Assembly (NCBI RefSeq): GCF_000582785.1
Contig: NZ_HG931174.1
Location: 896,313 to 936,332 of the forward strand
Direction: 5' to 3'
DNA: 40,020 nt
Source: Candidatus Blastococcus massiliensis AP3
Lineage (GTDB): Bacteria > Actinomycetota > Actinomycetes > Mycobacteriales > Geodermatophilaceae
The position numbers were made by a program, and so were the translations under genes. This document shows, one piece after another, positions 1,062 to 6,486 of this stretch. The notes below the pieces were generated by a model. The model saw only the letters and a program-made list of their open reading frames with translations. It was not told where the DNA came from and made no database searches. The stretch's first letter is position 1. Each line of letters opens with the position of its first letter.

Positions 1062-1757
1062 TCAGCTGCCGAGCCGCCCCGTCGGATCGACCGTCCAGCG
1101 CCCCACCGCGGCCACCAGCCGGGTGGTCATCGCCGCCAGCAGGTCGCCCCCCTCGGCCGCCGAGGCGCCCGCCGGGTCGCCCAGCACCCCGGTCGGGCTG
1201 ACCGCCCGGACGCCGCCGGCCCGGAGCCGGCGCAGCAGATCCGCCAGGGGTGCGGTCTCGCCCGCCACGGCGTCGTCGACGCGGACCTCAGCAGGTTCCA
1301 CGTGCAACATCAGTGACGTCTCGGTCCGGCCCGCATGGGCGTCGCCGCCCGGCACACCGCAGGCGAACCAGGCCGCGTCCCGCCCCTCCGAGCGCAGCAG
1401 CGGCACCGCCGCCCGCAGCGCCTCGAGGTTCCCGCCGTGGCCGTTGACCACCAGCACCCGCCGCGCCCACCGGCCCGCCGACCGGCCCAGCTCCACCAGC
1501 ACCGCGGTCAGCGCCTCGGTCCCGAGCGACACCGTGCCGGGGAAGCCCTCGTGCTCGCCACTGGCCCCGTAGGGGAGCGCGGGCGCCAGCAGCGCATCCG
1601 GCAGCTCCGGCATCGCCGCGCGGGCCACGGCAGTGGCGACGGCGGTGTCGGTGGCCAGGGGCAGGTGATGGCCGTGCTGCTCGACCGAGCCGAGCGGGAC
1701 GACGAGCAACGGCGCCACGGGGATCCGCGGCCAGACGGCACCGGCGAGCTCGGTCAC
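1062..1757 (-). CDS. mftE: Mycofactocin precursor peptide peptidase MftE (creatininase family)
   Basis: Creatininase-fold metallopeptidase that releases the C-terminal Val-Tyr-derived dipeptide (AHDP) from MftC-modified MftA. The 231 residues are a normal length. Metal ligand motifs are visible: PLGSVEQHGHHLPLATD (residues 21-37, with E26, H28 and D37), VNGHGGN, and AHAGRTETS containing the second glutamate. The start is a GTG at 1757. TAGGCT lies exactly 6 nt upstream of it, so the transcript is probably leaderless. mftF follows. The divergent YchJ-like gene starts only 32 nt away, so mftEF has its own promoter here and is not the tail of an mftA-F operon. Confidence 0.93.
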   Translation of the reverse strand: MTELAGAVWPRIPVAPLLVVPLGSVEQHGHHLPLATDTAVATAVARAAMPELPDALLAPALPYGASGEHEGFPGTVSLGTEALTAVLVELGRSAGRWARRVLVVNGHGGNLEALRAAVPLLRSEGRDAAWFACGVPGGDAHAGRTETSLMLHVEPAEVRVDDAVAGETAPLADLLRRLRAGGVRAVSPTGVLGDPAGASAAEGGDLLAAMTTRLVAAVGRWTVDPTGRLGS

Positions 1758-2718: not shown

Positions 2719-3960
2719 TCAGCGGAGCCCGGCCAGCGGGGACTCGTCGCAGGGCCGGGCGGGCGGTGCGGGTGAGGGACGGGCCGGGATCGACGGCATG
2801 CCCAGAAGCGTGGGCTGCCCGCGCACCGGGCCCGTGTGCGAGTGATCGATGTGGCTGCGCGGCGTGACCAGCTCGAGGTCGCGGGCGGCCAGGGCGGTCT
2901 CGCCGTAGCCCTGCACGCACTCGGGGTCAGGACCGTCCAGCGGCAGGCCGGTGAAGAACTTGGCCGCCATGCAGCCGCCACGGCAGGCGTCGAAGTGCGC
3001 ACACTTCGTGCAGGCGCCGCCGGTCTGCGGGTTGCGCAGGTCGGCGAACAGCTCCGACTGCTGCCACACCCGCTGGAAGCCACCCTCGTCGCGCACGTTG
3101 CCGGCGAGGAAGTTCTCGTGGATGGCGAACGGGCAGGCGTAGACGTCTCCCACGGGGTCGATCAGGCAGACGACGCGACCGGCGCCGCAGAGGTTCAGGC
3201 CCGGCAGGGCCTCGCCGAACGCCGACAGGTGGAAGAACGAGTCGCCGGTGAGGACGCCGTCGCCGTTGGCCAGCAGCCAGTTGTAGAGCTCGCGCTGCTG
3301 GGCCATCGTCGGGTGCAGCTCGTCCCACACGTCGGCCCCGCGGCCGGAGGGACGCAGCCGGGTGATCCGGAGCTGGGCGCCGAAGGAGTCGGTGAGCTCC
3401 TTGAACGCGTCGAGCTGCCCGGCGTTCTCGCGGGTGACGACGACGGAGACCTTGAAGTCCTTCATCCCGGCCTCGGCCAGGTTCTCCAGCGCGCGGATGG
3501 CGGTCGCGTAGGAGCCGACCCCGCGGACGCGGTCGTTCACCTCGGCGGTGGCGCCGTCCAGGGAGATCTGCACGTCGACGTAGTCGGTGCGGGCCAGCTG
3601 CGCGGCGCGGGTCTTGTCGAGCTTGATGCCGTTGGTGGAGAACTTGACGCCGACGTCGTGGCCGATGGCGTAGTCGAGCAGGTGCCAGAAGTCCGGGCGC
3701 ACGGTCGGCTCGCCGCCGCCGACGTTGACGTAGAAGACCTGCATCCGCTGCAGCTCGTCGATGACCGCCTCGGCCTCGGCGGTGGAGAGCTCGCGCGGGT
3801 CGCGCCGGCCGGAGGAGGACAGGCAGTGGGCGCACGCCAGGTTGCAGGCGTAGGTCAGCTCCCACGTCAGGCAGATCGGGGCGTCGAGGCCGTACTCGAA
3901 CTGGTCGATCAGCCGACCGCCCTCGGGGCGCTGCGGTCGGGCGGGCAGGACTGCGGTCAC
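2719..3960 (-). CDS. mftC: Mycofactocin radical SAM maturase MftC
   Basis: Radical SAM/SPASM enzyme that oxidatively decarboxylates the C-terminal Tyr of MftA and then cross-links it to Val. It has 413 residues. The radical SAM motif CNLACAHC gives C39, C43 and C46; GGGEPTVRP and the FSTNGIKL strand follow. The SPASM auxiliary-cluster cysteines are in CGAGRVVCLIDPVGDVYACPF and CTKCAHFDACRGGCMAAK. The start is a GTG at 3960 that overlaps the mftB stop as GTGA, which indicates translational coupling. The last 30 or so residues are Pro/Ala-rich and unlike the conserved core. Confidence 0.95.
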   Translation of the reverse strand: MTAVLPARPQRPEGGRLIDQFEYGLDAPICLTWELTYACNLACAHCLSSSGRRDPRELSTAEAEAVIDELQRMQVFYVNVGGGEPTVRPDFWHLLDYAIGHDVGVKFSTNGIKLDKTRAAQLARTDYVDVQISLDGATAEVNDRVRGVGSYATAIRALENLAEAGMKDFKVSVVVTRENAGQLDAFKELTDSFGAQLRITRLRPSGRGADVWDELHPTMAQQRELYNWLLANGDGVLTGDSFFHLSAFGEALPGLNLCGAGRVVCLIDPVGDVYACPFAIHENFLAGNVRDEGGFQRVWQQSELFADLRNPQTGGACTKCAHFDACRGGCMAAKFFTGLPLDGPDPECVQGYGETALAARDLELVTPRSHIDHSHTGPVRGQPTLLGMPSIPARPSPAPPARPCDESPLAGLR

Positions 3961-4259
3961 GGGAGCTCCCGCCTTTCGATCATCTGCGAGCGGGCGAGGT
4001 CGGCGAGCGCCTTCTCGTACGCGGGACGCTGCGCCTCGCTCACGCCGCAGGCGGCGAGGGTGGCGCTCGCGCTCGGGTGGTCGGCCAGCGCCTCGACGAC
4101 GGCGACCAGCGTCTTCGACTTCAGGAAGGAGAGCTTCCGGTTGCCGAAGTGGTAGACGAGCGCGCCGAACGGCTCGGGCCGCAGCGCCACCGAGCGGGCG
4201 CGCTGCCAGGGCTGAGCCGGGTCGAACGCGACCTCGGCAGGGGACACCGCCGTGGTCAC
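3957..4259 (-). CDS. mftB: Mycofactocin peptide chaperone MftB
   Basis: RiPP recognition element (PqqD-like) that binds the MftA leader and presents it to MftC. About 100 residues. The conserved core is PWQRARSVALRPEPFGALVY followed by HFGNRKLSFLKSKTLVAVV. The GTG at 4259 lies just after the mftA stop and fits family length. A longer reading from the GTG at 4289 would overlap the end of mftA by 16 nt and add ten residues. It is joined to mftC by a 4-nt stop/start overlap. Confidence 0.92.
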   Translation of the reverse strand: MTTAVSPAEVAFDPAQPWQRARSVALRPEPFGALVYHFGNRKLSFLKSKTLVAVVEALADHPSASATLAACGVSEAQRPAYEKALADLARSQMIERRELP

Positions 4260-4273
4260 AGGTACCGGCTCGC

Positions 4274-4393
4274 TCAGTAGACGCCGCACATGCCGTCGAT
4301 CGAGACCTCTTCGACCAGCGACTCCTCGACCAGGGCTTCCTCCGTGGCGACGGGGGCCTCGGCGGTGTCGACGGTGGTGGCGGTGTCAGCCAT
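4274..4393 (-). CDS. mftA: Mycofactocin precursor peptide MftA
   Basis: A 39-residue ribosomal precursor. It begins MADTATTVDTAEAP, has an acidic Glu/Val-rich middle, and ends in the invariant core IDGMCGVY, whose last Val-Tyr pair becomes the redox cofactor. The ATG at 4393 is preceded at proper spacing by AGGAG. It is the first gene of an mftABC operon transcribed away from mftR. Upstream, TTGCCC-N18-TAGCCT forms a promoter whose spacer contains an inverted repeat (separate entry). Confidence 0.95.
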   Translation of the reverse strand: MADTATTVDTAEAPVATEEALVEESLVEEVSIDGMCGVY

Positions 4394-4433: not shown

Positions 4434-4463
4434 AGGCTAGTGACACCCGGTGCCAGGGGGCAA
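4434..4463 (-). promoter_or_regulatory. Probable mftABC promoter
   Basis: On the minus strand, TTGCCC (4463-4458) and TAGCCT (4439-4434) are 18 nt apart. Transcription would start near 4427, giving a leader of about 33 nt with an AGGAG site. The operator-like repeat at 4441-4455 lies wholly inside the spacer. Confidence 0.5.
4441..4455. promoter_or_regulatory. Candidate MftR operator O1 (mftA-mftR intergenic)
   Basis: TGACAC-CCG-GTGCCA is a 6-3-6 inverted repeat with one mismatch. Read on the minus strand it is TGGCAC-CGG-GTGTCA, matching 11 of 12 arm bases of the perfect repeat upstream of mftD. It occupies the -35/-10 spacer of mftA and lies about 48 bp upstream of the mftR start, so a bound repressor could control both divergent units. 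Assigning it to MftR is inference. Confidence 0.6.
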
Positions 4464-4490
4464 ACCGGGGTGGGGCGCGGGTGGGCGCGG

Positions 4491-4496
4491 CACAAT
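4491..4496 (+). promoter_or_regulatory. Probable leaderless -10 box of mftR
   Basis: CACAAT followed by GCGGCC and then the GTG at 4503. The 6-nt distance suggests a leaderless transcript. It also supports the GTG at 4503 over the upstream in-frame GTG at 4440. Confidence 0.45.
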
Positions 4497-4502
4497 GCGG
4501 CC

Positions 4503-5105
4503 GTGACCGTGACGGGAACGGCGCCCCCCGGCGTGCCGGCCGAGACGACCCGTGCCCGCGTCGAGCGGGCGGCCCTGGACCTGTTCACGCTCCGCGGCTT
4601 CGAGCAGGTCACGACCGACGAGGTCGCCGACGCCGCGGGCATCAGCCGACGCACCTTCTTCCGCTACTTCGCCACCAAGGCCGACGCGGTGTGGGGCGAT
4701 TTCGGCGCCCACGTCGCCCGGCTGGAGGAGCTGCTGGCAGGCACCGATCCGGGCCGGCCGGTGCTCGAGTCGGTCTGCGCGGCCTACGTCGAGGTCAACG
4801 ACTACGCGGGCACCGAGTTGCCGCTGCTGCGCGAGCGGATGCTGCTCATCCTGAACGAGCCGGCGCTCCTGGCCCACTCGCAGCTGCGGTACGCCGAGGT
4901 CGACCGGGTCGTCGCGCGGTACGTCGCGGACCGTTCGGGGGCGACTCCGTCCGACCTGGTCCCGCGGCTGGTCGCGGCCACCACGCGGGCCTCCGCCACC
5001 ACGGCCTTCGAGGCCTGGCTGGCCGACGAGCACTCGGCCCTCGGGGACCAGCTGCGTCAGGCCTTCACCGAGCTCACCCGCGGTTTTCCGGGCCTGGTGC
5101 ACTGA
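4503..5105 (+). CDS. mftR: TetR-family mycofactocin regulator MftR
   Basis: A 200-residue TetR repressor. The N-terminal helix-turn-helix is clear: RARVERAALDLFTLRGFEQV, then TTDEVADAAGISRRTFFRYF and ATKADAVWGDF. The rest is a ligand-binding helical domain. MftR of mycobacteria represses the mft operon and is relieved by long-chain acyl-CoA; by position and sequence this is its counterpart. The GTG at 4503 was preferred because a -10-like box lies 6 nt upstream. It is divergent from mftA and 145 nt upstream of mftD. Confidence 0.88.
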   Translation: MTVTGTAPPGVPAETTRARVERAALDLFTLRGFEQVTTDEVADAAGISRRTFFRYFATKADAVWGDFGAHVARLEELLAGTDPGRPVLESVCAAYVEVNDYAGTELPLLRERMLLILNEPALLAHSQLRYAEVDRVVARYVADRSGATPSDLVPRLVAATTRASATTAFEAWLADEHSALGDQLRQAFTELTRGFPGLVH

Positions 5106-5148
5106 CTCCGACGGGGGGCGGTGTGGCCTTCGTCTCGTCGTGACCGGG

Positions 5149-5154
5149 TAGGGT
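5149..5154 (+). promoter_or_regulatory. Possible -10 box of mftD
   Basis: TAGGGT matches the actinobacterial TANNNT pattern, and its last base begins the operator-like repeat. No good -35 was seen, so mftD may instead be read partly from the mftR transcript. Confidence 0.4.
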
Positions 5155-5170
5155 GGCACTCAGTGCCACC
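5152..5170. promoter_or_regulatory. Candidate MftR operator O2 upstream of mftD
   Basis: GGTGGCACTCAGTGCCACC is a perfect 9-bp inverted repeat around a single central base. Its core, TGGCAC-N3-GTGCCA, is shared with the site in the mftA-mftR gap. It overlaps the end of a TAGGGT -10 box and lies about 80 bp before the mftD start. A short hairpin is an alternative role, but the shared core favours an operator. Confidence 0.65.
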
Positions 5171-5250: not shown

Positions 5251-6486
5251 ATGGCCAACGCATGGTTCGAATCGGTCGCAGAGGCGCAGCGGCGCGCCAG
5301 GAAGCGGCTGCCGAAGGGCGTCTACGGCGCGCTGGTCGCCGGCTCCGAGCGGGGGCTGACCACCGAGGACAACCTCGCCGCCTTCGCCGAGATCGGCTTC
5401 GCTCCGCACACCGCGGGTCTGGCCAACGAGCGCAACATGGGCGTCACCGTCATGGGCCAGGAGATGTCCATGCCGGTGATGATCAGCCCGACCGGCGTCC
5501 AGGCCGTGCACCCCGACGGCGAGGTCGCGGTCGCCCGTGCCGCCGCCAACCGCGGCGTCGCCATGGGGCTGTCCTCCTTCGCCAGCAAGCCGATCGAGGA
5601 GGTCGTCGCCGCCAACCCCAAGACGCACTTCCAGATGTACTGGGTCGGCACCCGCGACGAGATGCTCGCCCGCATGGAGCGGGCCAAGCGGGCCGGCGCC
5701 GTCGGCATGATCGCCACCCTGGACTGGTCGTTCGCCTACGGCCGGGACTGGGGCAGCCCGTTCATCCCCGAGAAGATCAACTTCGAGGCCGCCCGCCGCT
5801 ACGCACCGCAGGTGCTCACCAAGCCGCGCTGGCTCTGGGATTTCGCCAAGACCGGGAAGATCCCCGACCTCAAGGTCCCCAACATGGTCTCCGGGCCCGA
5901 TGAGGAAGCGCCCACCTTCTTCGGCGCCTACGGGATGTGGAACGCCTCCCCGATGCCGACCTGGGAGGACGTCGCCTGGCTGCGCTCGCAGTGGGACGGC
6001 CCGTTCATGCTCAAGGGCGTCATGCGGCCCGACGACGCCAAGCGCGCCGTCGATGCCGGCGTCACCGCCATCTCCGTGTCCAACCACGGCGGCAACAACC
6101 TCGACGGCACCCCGGCCTCGATCCGGGCGCTGCCCTCGGTCGCGGCTGCCGTCGGCGACCAGATCGAGGTACTGCTCGACGGCGGCATCCGCCGCGGCGG
6201 CGACGTCGCCAAGGCCGTCGCGCTCGGCGCCAAGGCCGTGATGATCGGTCGCGCCTACCTCTGGGGCCTCGGCGCCAATGGTCAGGCCGGCGTCGAGAAC
6301 GTTCTCGACCTGCTGCGTGACGGCCTCGGCTCGGCGATGGTCGGCCTCGGCAGGCCGACCGTCAGCGACCTCAGCCGCGAGGACCTCGTCATCCCCGAGG
6401 ACTTCGAGCGCGGCCTGAGCCGCGTGGCCGTCAACAACGCGCTGATCCACACGTCCCCGGCGCGTCGGCGGGGCCGGGAGGCCTGA
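5251..6486 (+). CDS. mftD: Mycofactocin flavin dehydrogenase MftD (lactate dehydrogenase-like)
   Basis: FMN-dependent alpha-hydroxy-acid dehydrogenase-type enzyme that deaminates AHDP to premycofactocin, the redox-active alpha-keto amide. It has 411 residues. Flavin-barrel motifs are present: MISPTGVQAVHPDGE near residue 80, AISVSNHGGNNLDG, then LLDGGIRRGGDVAKAVALGAKAVMIGR. The ATG at 5251 follows GACGAGGAGAG. In most clusters mftD sits between mftC and mftE on one strand; here it is detached and follows mftR. A strong terminator hairpin follows its stop. Confidence 0.93.
   Translation: MANAWFESVAEAQRRARKRLPKGVYGALVAGSERGLTTEDNLAAFAEIGFAPHTAGLANERNMGVTVMGQEMSMPVMISPTGVQAVHPDGEVAVARAAANRGVAMGLSSFASKPIEEVVAANPKTHFQMYWVGTRDEMLARMERAKRAGAVGMIATLDWSFAYGRDWGSPFIPEKINFEAARRYAPQVLTKPRWLWDFAKTGKIPDLKVPNMVSGPDEEAPTFFGAYGMWNASPMPTWEDVAWLRSQWDGPFMLKGVMRPDDAKRAVDAGVTAISVSNHGGNNLDGTPASIRALPSVAAAVGDQIEVLLDGGIRRGGDVAKAVALGAKAVMIGRAYLWGLGANGQAGVENVLDLLRDGLGSAMVGLGRPTVSDLSREDLVIPEDFERGLSRVAVNNALIHTSPARRRGREA

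Follow-up and report, generated by a model that had tools for sequence, protein, structure and literature searches.

In the genome of Candidatus Blastococcus massiliensis AP3 (3.87 Mb in four contigs) mftD lies outside the mftABC operon and on the other strand, which raises the question of how these genes could be controlled together. The window analyzed here is a stretch of 40,020 nucleotides (contig NZ_HG931174.1, positions 896,313 to 936,332), and coordinates refer to it unless another contig is named. The genes for the mycofactocin precursor peptide, mftA (4274..4393; TIGR03969, 48.1 bits, cut-off 25), for mftB (3957..4289; TIGR03967, 117.5 bits, cut-off 33, matched over residues 23-107 and with a provisional start codon) and for the radical SAM maturase, mftC (2719..3960; TIGR03962, 647.4 bits, cut-off 265), are on the minus strand. 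Between mftABC and mftD, on the plus strand, lies mftR (4503..5105, with GTG 4503 as the chosen start codon), followed on the same strand by mftD, encoding the pre-mycofactocin synthase (5251..6486; TIGR03966, 682.2 bits, cut-off 470.85). The product of mftR, a TetR-family repressor, scores 237.8 bits against the MftR equivalog TIGR03968, above the curated cut-off of 224.9, and its gene adjoins mftA, mftB and mftC; its solved relatives are 2rae and 8x0a, of which 8x0a carries the name MftR. Named relatives found by MftR are Blastococcus and other Geodermatophilaceae, with up to 86% identity. On the minus strand and apart from mftABC lies mftE (1062..1757; TIGR03964, 330.5 bits, cut-off 172), beyond a plus-strand pyridoxamine 5'-phosphate oxidase-like frame (1810-2685, assigned by domain match) that separates it from mftC, and therefore mftE needs a promoter of its own. 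A minus-strand frame with a glycosyltransferase-family-2 domain (2-988) is a candidate mftF. The ORF caller goes by composition when choosing reading frames, and its start positions are frequently wrong; the neighbors named here were checked by BLAST or NCBIfam.

The answer is very probably given by two palindromes that flank mftR, which we predict to be operators through which MftR controls both mftABC and mftD. Operator 2 has the core TGGCACTCAGTGCCA (5154-5168), a perfect TGGCAC-N3-GTGCCA repeat upstream of mftD, which extends to a perfect 9-1-9 palindrome, GGTGGCACT-C-AGTGCCACC (5152-5170). Operator 1, TGACACCCGGTGCCA (4441-4455), deviates from the motif by one mismatch and lies between two start codons, the mftA ATG and the mftR GTG (4503), at 47 nt from each. 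Both repeats are present in the sequence exactly as the original prediction had described them, and at up to one mismatch they are the sole matches in the window, with 0.06 expected (100 dinucleotide shuffles, none of which gave two). At up to two mismatches, three matches were found versus 2.42 expected, which is not significant. Across the whole genome eight sites with up to one mismatch were counted versus 14 for the reversed control, and this raw count is uninformative because the control is higher; five of the eight lie within unrelated reading frames and three beside mftR and an mftR paralogue. Genome-wide significance was therefore rejected for the one-mismatch motif, the signal residing in position and in the stricter motif TGRCACNNNGTGYCA (TGRCAC-N3-GTGYCA). 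The latter occurs three times in the genome, at operator 1, operator 2 and positions 203855-203869 of contig 3, and not once in its reversed control. The further claim that neither mftEF nor the alcohol dehydrogenase of the window carries a third copy also held, the best matches being 8/12 upstream of mftE and 9/12 upstream of the dehydrogenase; mftE may be expressed independently. A third copy does exist elsewhere in the source genome, namely the one on contig 3.

For Mycobacterium smegmatis, Mendauletova and Latham (PMC8728441) describe a 27-bp MftR operator upstream of mftA that was identified by footprinting, with the core TGGCACTCGATGCCA and a palindrome given as T-N2-GGCA-N5-TGCC-N2-A. 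As described there, MftR was released by long-chain acyl-CoA and single base changes did not abolish binding. Of the 15 bases of the published core, operator 2 shares 13 and operator 1 shares 12. The inner palindrome GGCA-N5-TGCC is exact at operator 2, while operator 1 has GACA in place of GGCA. Neither operator keeps the T and A at the outer ends of that palindrome (G/C at operator 2, A/G at operator 1), and for this reason we describe them as predicted to act like Omft and as sharing its core, not as fitting the full mycobacterial consensus. The likeness comprises a TetR-family MftR, the operator core and one copy upstream of mftA, operator 1 lying within the mftA promoter region. It extends to the MftR orthologue Rv0691c, for which the Discussion of PMC8728441 refers to a ChIP-seq site 5' of the mftA homologue, the position of a predicted MftR operator in our window. 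In contrast to the single operator upstream of the mft genes in M. smegmatis, two operators flank mftR in the window, the second being placed at a separate mftD, and a third lies at a pair formed by the MftR paralogue and a short-chain dehydrogenase/reductase (SDR) gene. Judged from sequence, the operator type is known, while its arrangement, with two operators and dispersed, is new. Among the titles and abstract openings listed from the open-licence mycofactocin literature, none concerns a second MftR operator, a paralogue sharing one or the operator at an SDR or alcohol dehydrogenase gene, and the word "operator" was not found in the available text of PMC3023750 and PMC11778925. The Discussion of PMC8728441 does not mention a second mft operator and regards the mycofactocin regulatory network as likely incomplete.

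The placement of both palindromes relative to the promoters is as originally proposed. On the minus strand (4434..4463), the mftA promoter consists of TTGCCC (4463-4458), a spacer of 18 nt that contains operator 1, and TAGCCT (4439-4434). On the plus strand, the last T of the mftD -10 element TAGGGT (5149..5154) is the first base of the 15-base core of operator 2. A strict E. coli-type promoter scan found neither promoter in the window stretch, and the assignment therefore rests on conservation. Read in the direction of mftA, 73 aligned sites from the window and its relatives follow roughly the order TTGCC, a few bases, TGGCACYSGGTGTCA, one base and TANCNT, with the T, the A and the final T of the -10 box each kept in 71 of the 73. 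Where mftD is adjacent to mftR, T and A occur at positions -5 and -4 from the core in all 31 loci, so that the closing T of a TANNNT box is also the first base of the core. In the direction of mftR, a conserved -10 box was looked for in the 73 aligned sites and none was seen. At many displaced mftD genes the operator occupies a -35-like position ahead of a CANNAT-like box. In a tree of 63 nearly full-length mftD proteins, the -10 layout makes up one side of a branch (33 rows, 100/99), the remaining layouts occurring elsewhere; the layout labels follow loose pattern rules. The tree thereby suggests, but does not prove, repeated gain or re-setting of the operator at mftD. The mftA-side site in the window and its relatives (L009-L082) is often imperfect in one and the same half (TGACAC, beside the mftA -10 box), unlike the sites before adjacent mftD genes, which are mostly perfect palindromes. 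The half-site imperfection may tune affinity.

The original prediction had been made dependent on conservation of the repeat near mft genes in relatives, and such conservation was found. It was assessed in 75 loci, comprising the window and L009-L082; L083-L088, which had no mftA, mftC or mftD hit, were excluded. With 10 to 12 of the 12 motif positions matched, the operator is present upstream of mftR and mftA in 73 of the 75 loci, L014 and L059 having no good site at mftA. In all 31 loci in which mftD lies downstream of mftR on the same strand, a site precedes mftD at a distance of 45-97 bp. None of the other 44 loci reaches 10/12 within 350 bp downstream of mftR, with L044 offering only 166 bp for the search. 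In the six loci where over 300 bp separate mftD from the mftR match (L013, L014, L027, L069, L078 and L079), the site is located 51-83 bp before mftD. One record with a Geodermatophilaceae-type mft cluster (L058) is titled Bacillus sp. AZ43 and marked as unverified, a label that is probably wrong.

Of 345 genomes drawn from across the class, 89 contained a TIGR03968 match at E ≤ 1e-45, the window's own genome among them. Besides the two matches in the window's genome there were 95, and 30 of these loci, with MftR proteins 38-46% identical to that of the window, were examined. A site (at least 10/12) was detected within 400 bp upstream of mftR in 27 of the 30, and none of the 30 has one within 350 bp downstream of mftR. 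Several of these loci contain TGGCATCGAGTGCC, the reverse complement of which is part of the published core, and we infer that the genomes concerned are mycobacteria. At six distant MftR-like TetR loci without mft neighbors the same site was found in three (L085, L086 and L088; not L083, L084 or L087). The three belong to Amycolatopsis, have proteins 31-36% identical to MftR, and carry TGACACCTAGTGCCA 86 bp upstream. The motif is therefore common to a wider TetR clade and not exclusive to MftR.

Conservation follows mftD also where the gene has moved. In many relatives mftD is distant from mftR; among 30 mftD loci sampled there, a site lies 40-119 bp upstream in 28, and the two loci without one (L153 and L160) are both from genomes without an MftR match. 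MftR and mftD occur together in 89 genomes, and in every one of them at least one mftD is preceded by a site at 26-132 bp (nearer copy counted), a count compiled by hand from 33 genomes with mftD near mftR and 56 for which upstream DNA was used. Another 12 genomes have mftD but lack an MftR match, and nine of these have no site. The three MftR-less genomes with a site (G036, G095 and G097) are 88, 70 and 72% complete, and MftR may therefore be missing from the assembly only; the nine without a site comprise G066 (81%), G071 (74%), G094 (70%) and six that are 92-100% complete. Association of MftR with the site at the genome level gave a Fisher p of 1e-10, which ignores shared ancestry and overstates the true weight because the MftR-less genomes cluster in few genera; the genomes are phylogenetically related, so that none of these counts are independent. 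More independent cases of an absent MftR are G027 and G028, in whose genus 12 of 16 genomes retain it. Of the 115 mftD copies listed, 103 are in MftR-bearing genomes, and nine of these 103 have no site, all of them second or third copies (L203, L206, L210, L212, L223, L224, L241, L242 and one on contig 3 of G105). The first eight of these encode proteins 60-80% identical to the mftD product of the window, and the site-less second mftD of L210 adjoins its own mftA and mftC.

The strict motif behaves likewise. It occurs 285 times in 112 genomes, and its reversed control 66 times. The 92 MftR-bearing genomes account for 276 sites (control 53), with at least one in every genome, and the 20 genomes without MftR for nine (control 13). 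In the window's genus, exactly two strict sites are present in 18 of 23 genomes, one preceding mftD and the other across mftR from it (site positions were listed for genomes up to G038). Together with the match to the footprinted operator of M. smegmatis, this conservation supports the proposal that the repeats are MftR operators of a shared circuit.

We infer from these results that MftR binds both sites, and the mechanism would be as follows. An MftR dimer on operator 1, between the -35 and -10 boxes of the mftA promoter, would block mftABC, and a dimer on operator 2, over the -10 end and the transcription start region of mftD, would block mftD. As operator 1 is situated 47 bp upstream of mftR, mftR may in addition be autoregulated. 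With mftD outside the mftABC operon and furnished with its own operator copy, the precursor, the maturase and the next enzyme would be switched together. Both operators would be freed by an inducer, which by analogy with mycobacteria may be a long-chain acyl-CoA. We regard this mechanism as the most likely one; its repression, common release and acyl-CoA inducer are modeled on M. smegmatis.

Assigning the sites to repressors is less straightforward. The third strict site of the source genome (contig 3, 203855-203869) lies between a gene for an MftR paralogue and a divergent gene for a mycofactocin-coupled SDR; it is intergenic provided that the paralogue starts at one of its own ATG codons. 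The protein scores 163.8 bits against TIGR03968, below the cut-off of 224.9, and is therefore regarded as a paralogue and not as MftR. The SDR scores 423.3 bits against TIGR03971 (cut-off 300) and is followed by a second SDR-like stretch that is 71% alike. To MftR the paralogue is 47% identical in the helix-turn-helix region and 25% in the ligand domain. Sixteen paralogue loci, 15 from relatives and that of the source genome, were compared, of which L003, L125 and L126 are nearly identical. In 14 the family match is preceded at 66-131 bp by a site (at least 10/12), in each case together with a divergent SDR gene related to the mycofactocin-coupled one; the two loci without a site (L120 and L129) are also without a divergent SDR. 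All four paralogue-linked SDRs that were scanned scored above the TIGR03971 cut-off. In L128, L130, L131 and L132, operator copies are present on both sides of the paralogue, as around mftR in the window. One genome, G105 (L127, L133), has two mftR-bearing clusters, each with operator copies, as well as an MftR paralogue, and one of its clusters adjoins a mycofactocin-coupled SDR gene with its own site.

The segment GISRRTFFRYF, which we take to be the recognition helix as in TetR proteins, is identical in MftR and the source-genome paralogue; across the family it varies, some paralogues having GIGRRTFFRYF and some MftR orthologues differing at two or more positions. The paralogue could, judging from this segment, also use the sites. 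That the sites mainly belong to the paralogue or to other TetR proteins of the clade, with MftR as one of several users, is a reading to which the shared segment and the operator before 14 of the 16 paralogues lend some weight. It is nevertheless improbable, since a second TIGR03968 match (E up to 1e-35) is listed in only 16 of the 92 MftR genomes, all of which have at least one site, and since the pair around mftR accounts for every strict site in those 18 genomes of the window's genus.

Very improbable is an origin of the 5152-5170 palindrome as an RNA hairpin, that is a terminator or attenuator of mftR and not a DNA operator, even though the palindrome starts 47 nt past the stop codon of mftR and the gap is predicted to fold more stably than shuffled sequences (z -2.03; 7 of 200 shuffles equally stable). 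No terminator-like site was found in the stretch, displaced mftD copies keep the same palindrome where mftR is not upstream, operator 2 overlaps the mftD promoter, and the same motif lies between the mftA promoter boxes, outside the transcript; the hairpin was rejected. Chance palindromes in G+C-rich DNA, with which the window count at two mismatches and the genome count at one are compatible, have a negligible probability, as the two good copies flank mftR against an expectation of 0.06 and hold their position across relatives.

Returning to MftR operators as the preferred reading, the regulon extends beyond the mft cluster. Among nine relatives, the strict motif precedes six NDMA-dependent alcohol dehydrogenase genes in five genomes (L243, L256, L264 twice, L267 and L273), all six products scoring above the TIGR03989 cut-off, and two mycofactocin-coupled SDR genes away from a paralogue (L266 and L133). 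These nine genomes were picked largely because they have many sites and are thus not a fair sample; their 58 sites were assigned by hand count, and 36 are at mftA/mftR (11), mftD (14), MftR paralogues (3), mycofactocin-coupled SDR genes (2) or NDMA-dependent alcohol dehydrogenase genes (6). The other 22 are at no recognised mycofactocin gene, compared with three for the reversed control, so that further targets or other users of the sites exist. The idea that every operator copy marks a mycofactocin gene was rejected on this count.

Some of the sites elsewhere have identifiable neighbors. In three genomes of one genus (L247, L269 and L272), TGGCACGGGGTGCCA or a relative of it lies beside a similar hydrolase frame, for which the best NCBIfam match in L269 is the methyl acetate hydrolase AcmB, below its cut-off; these sites are apparently unrelated to mycofactocin. 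Site 1501 of L257, TGGCACCCGGTGCCA, is placed just 5' of a gene resembling acyl-CoA dehydrogenases, though its matches stay under the equivalog cut-offs; the site deserves mention because acyl-CoA is the known MftR effector. Site 2037 of L268, TGGCACTTGGTGTCA, lies within a frame that is 31% locally identical to MftR, near two SDR-like genes, and the frame is possibly, by its sequence, another member of the same TetR clade.

The third copy, at the paralogue/SDR pair, would put a probable cofactor-using enzyme under an operator of this kind. MftR and the paralogue might form a network of two sensors that share one operator, each also occupying the other's promoters by virtue of the identical helix-turn-helix segment, with MftR governing cofactor supply, the paralogue governing cofactor-using enzymes and the operator serving as a portable tag for supply and demand. 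We propose this tentatively and consider it somewhat less probable than its opposite. A comparable arrangement is reportedly found in KstR and KstR2, TetR-type regulators with genome-wide dispersed regulons, two for one metabolism; these are different regulators, and the likeness concerns the arrangement of the regulon.

The purpose of mycofactocin and the timing of its production are standing questions. The predicted operator at mftD would show how a gene outside the usual operon is kept under common control by an operator of its own, in more than one promoter layout. As a short and rare sequence that marks the cofactor genes and some users of the cofactor, the operator offers a sequence-only route to propose cofactor-dependent enzymes and makes the idea of cofactor supply and demand directly testable. 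If the two-sensor reading is true, supply by mftABC and mftD would be coupled to demand by the mycofactocin-coupled SDRs and NDMA-dependent alcohol dehydrogenases wherever these genes move.
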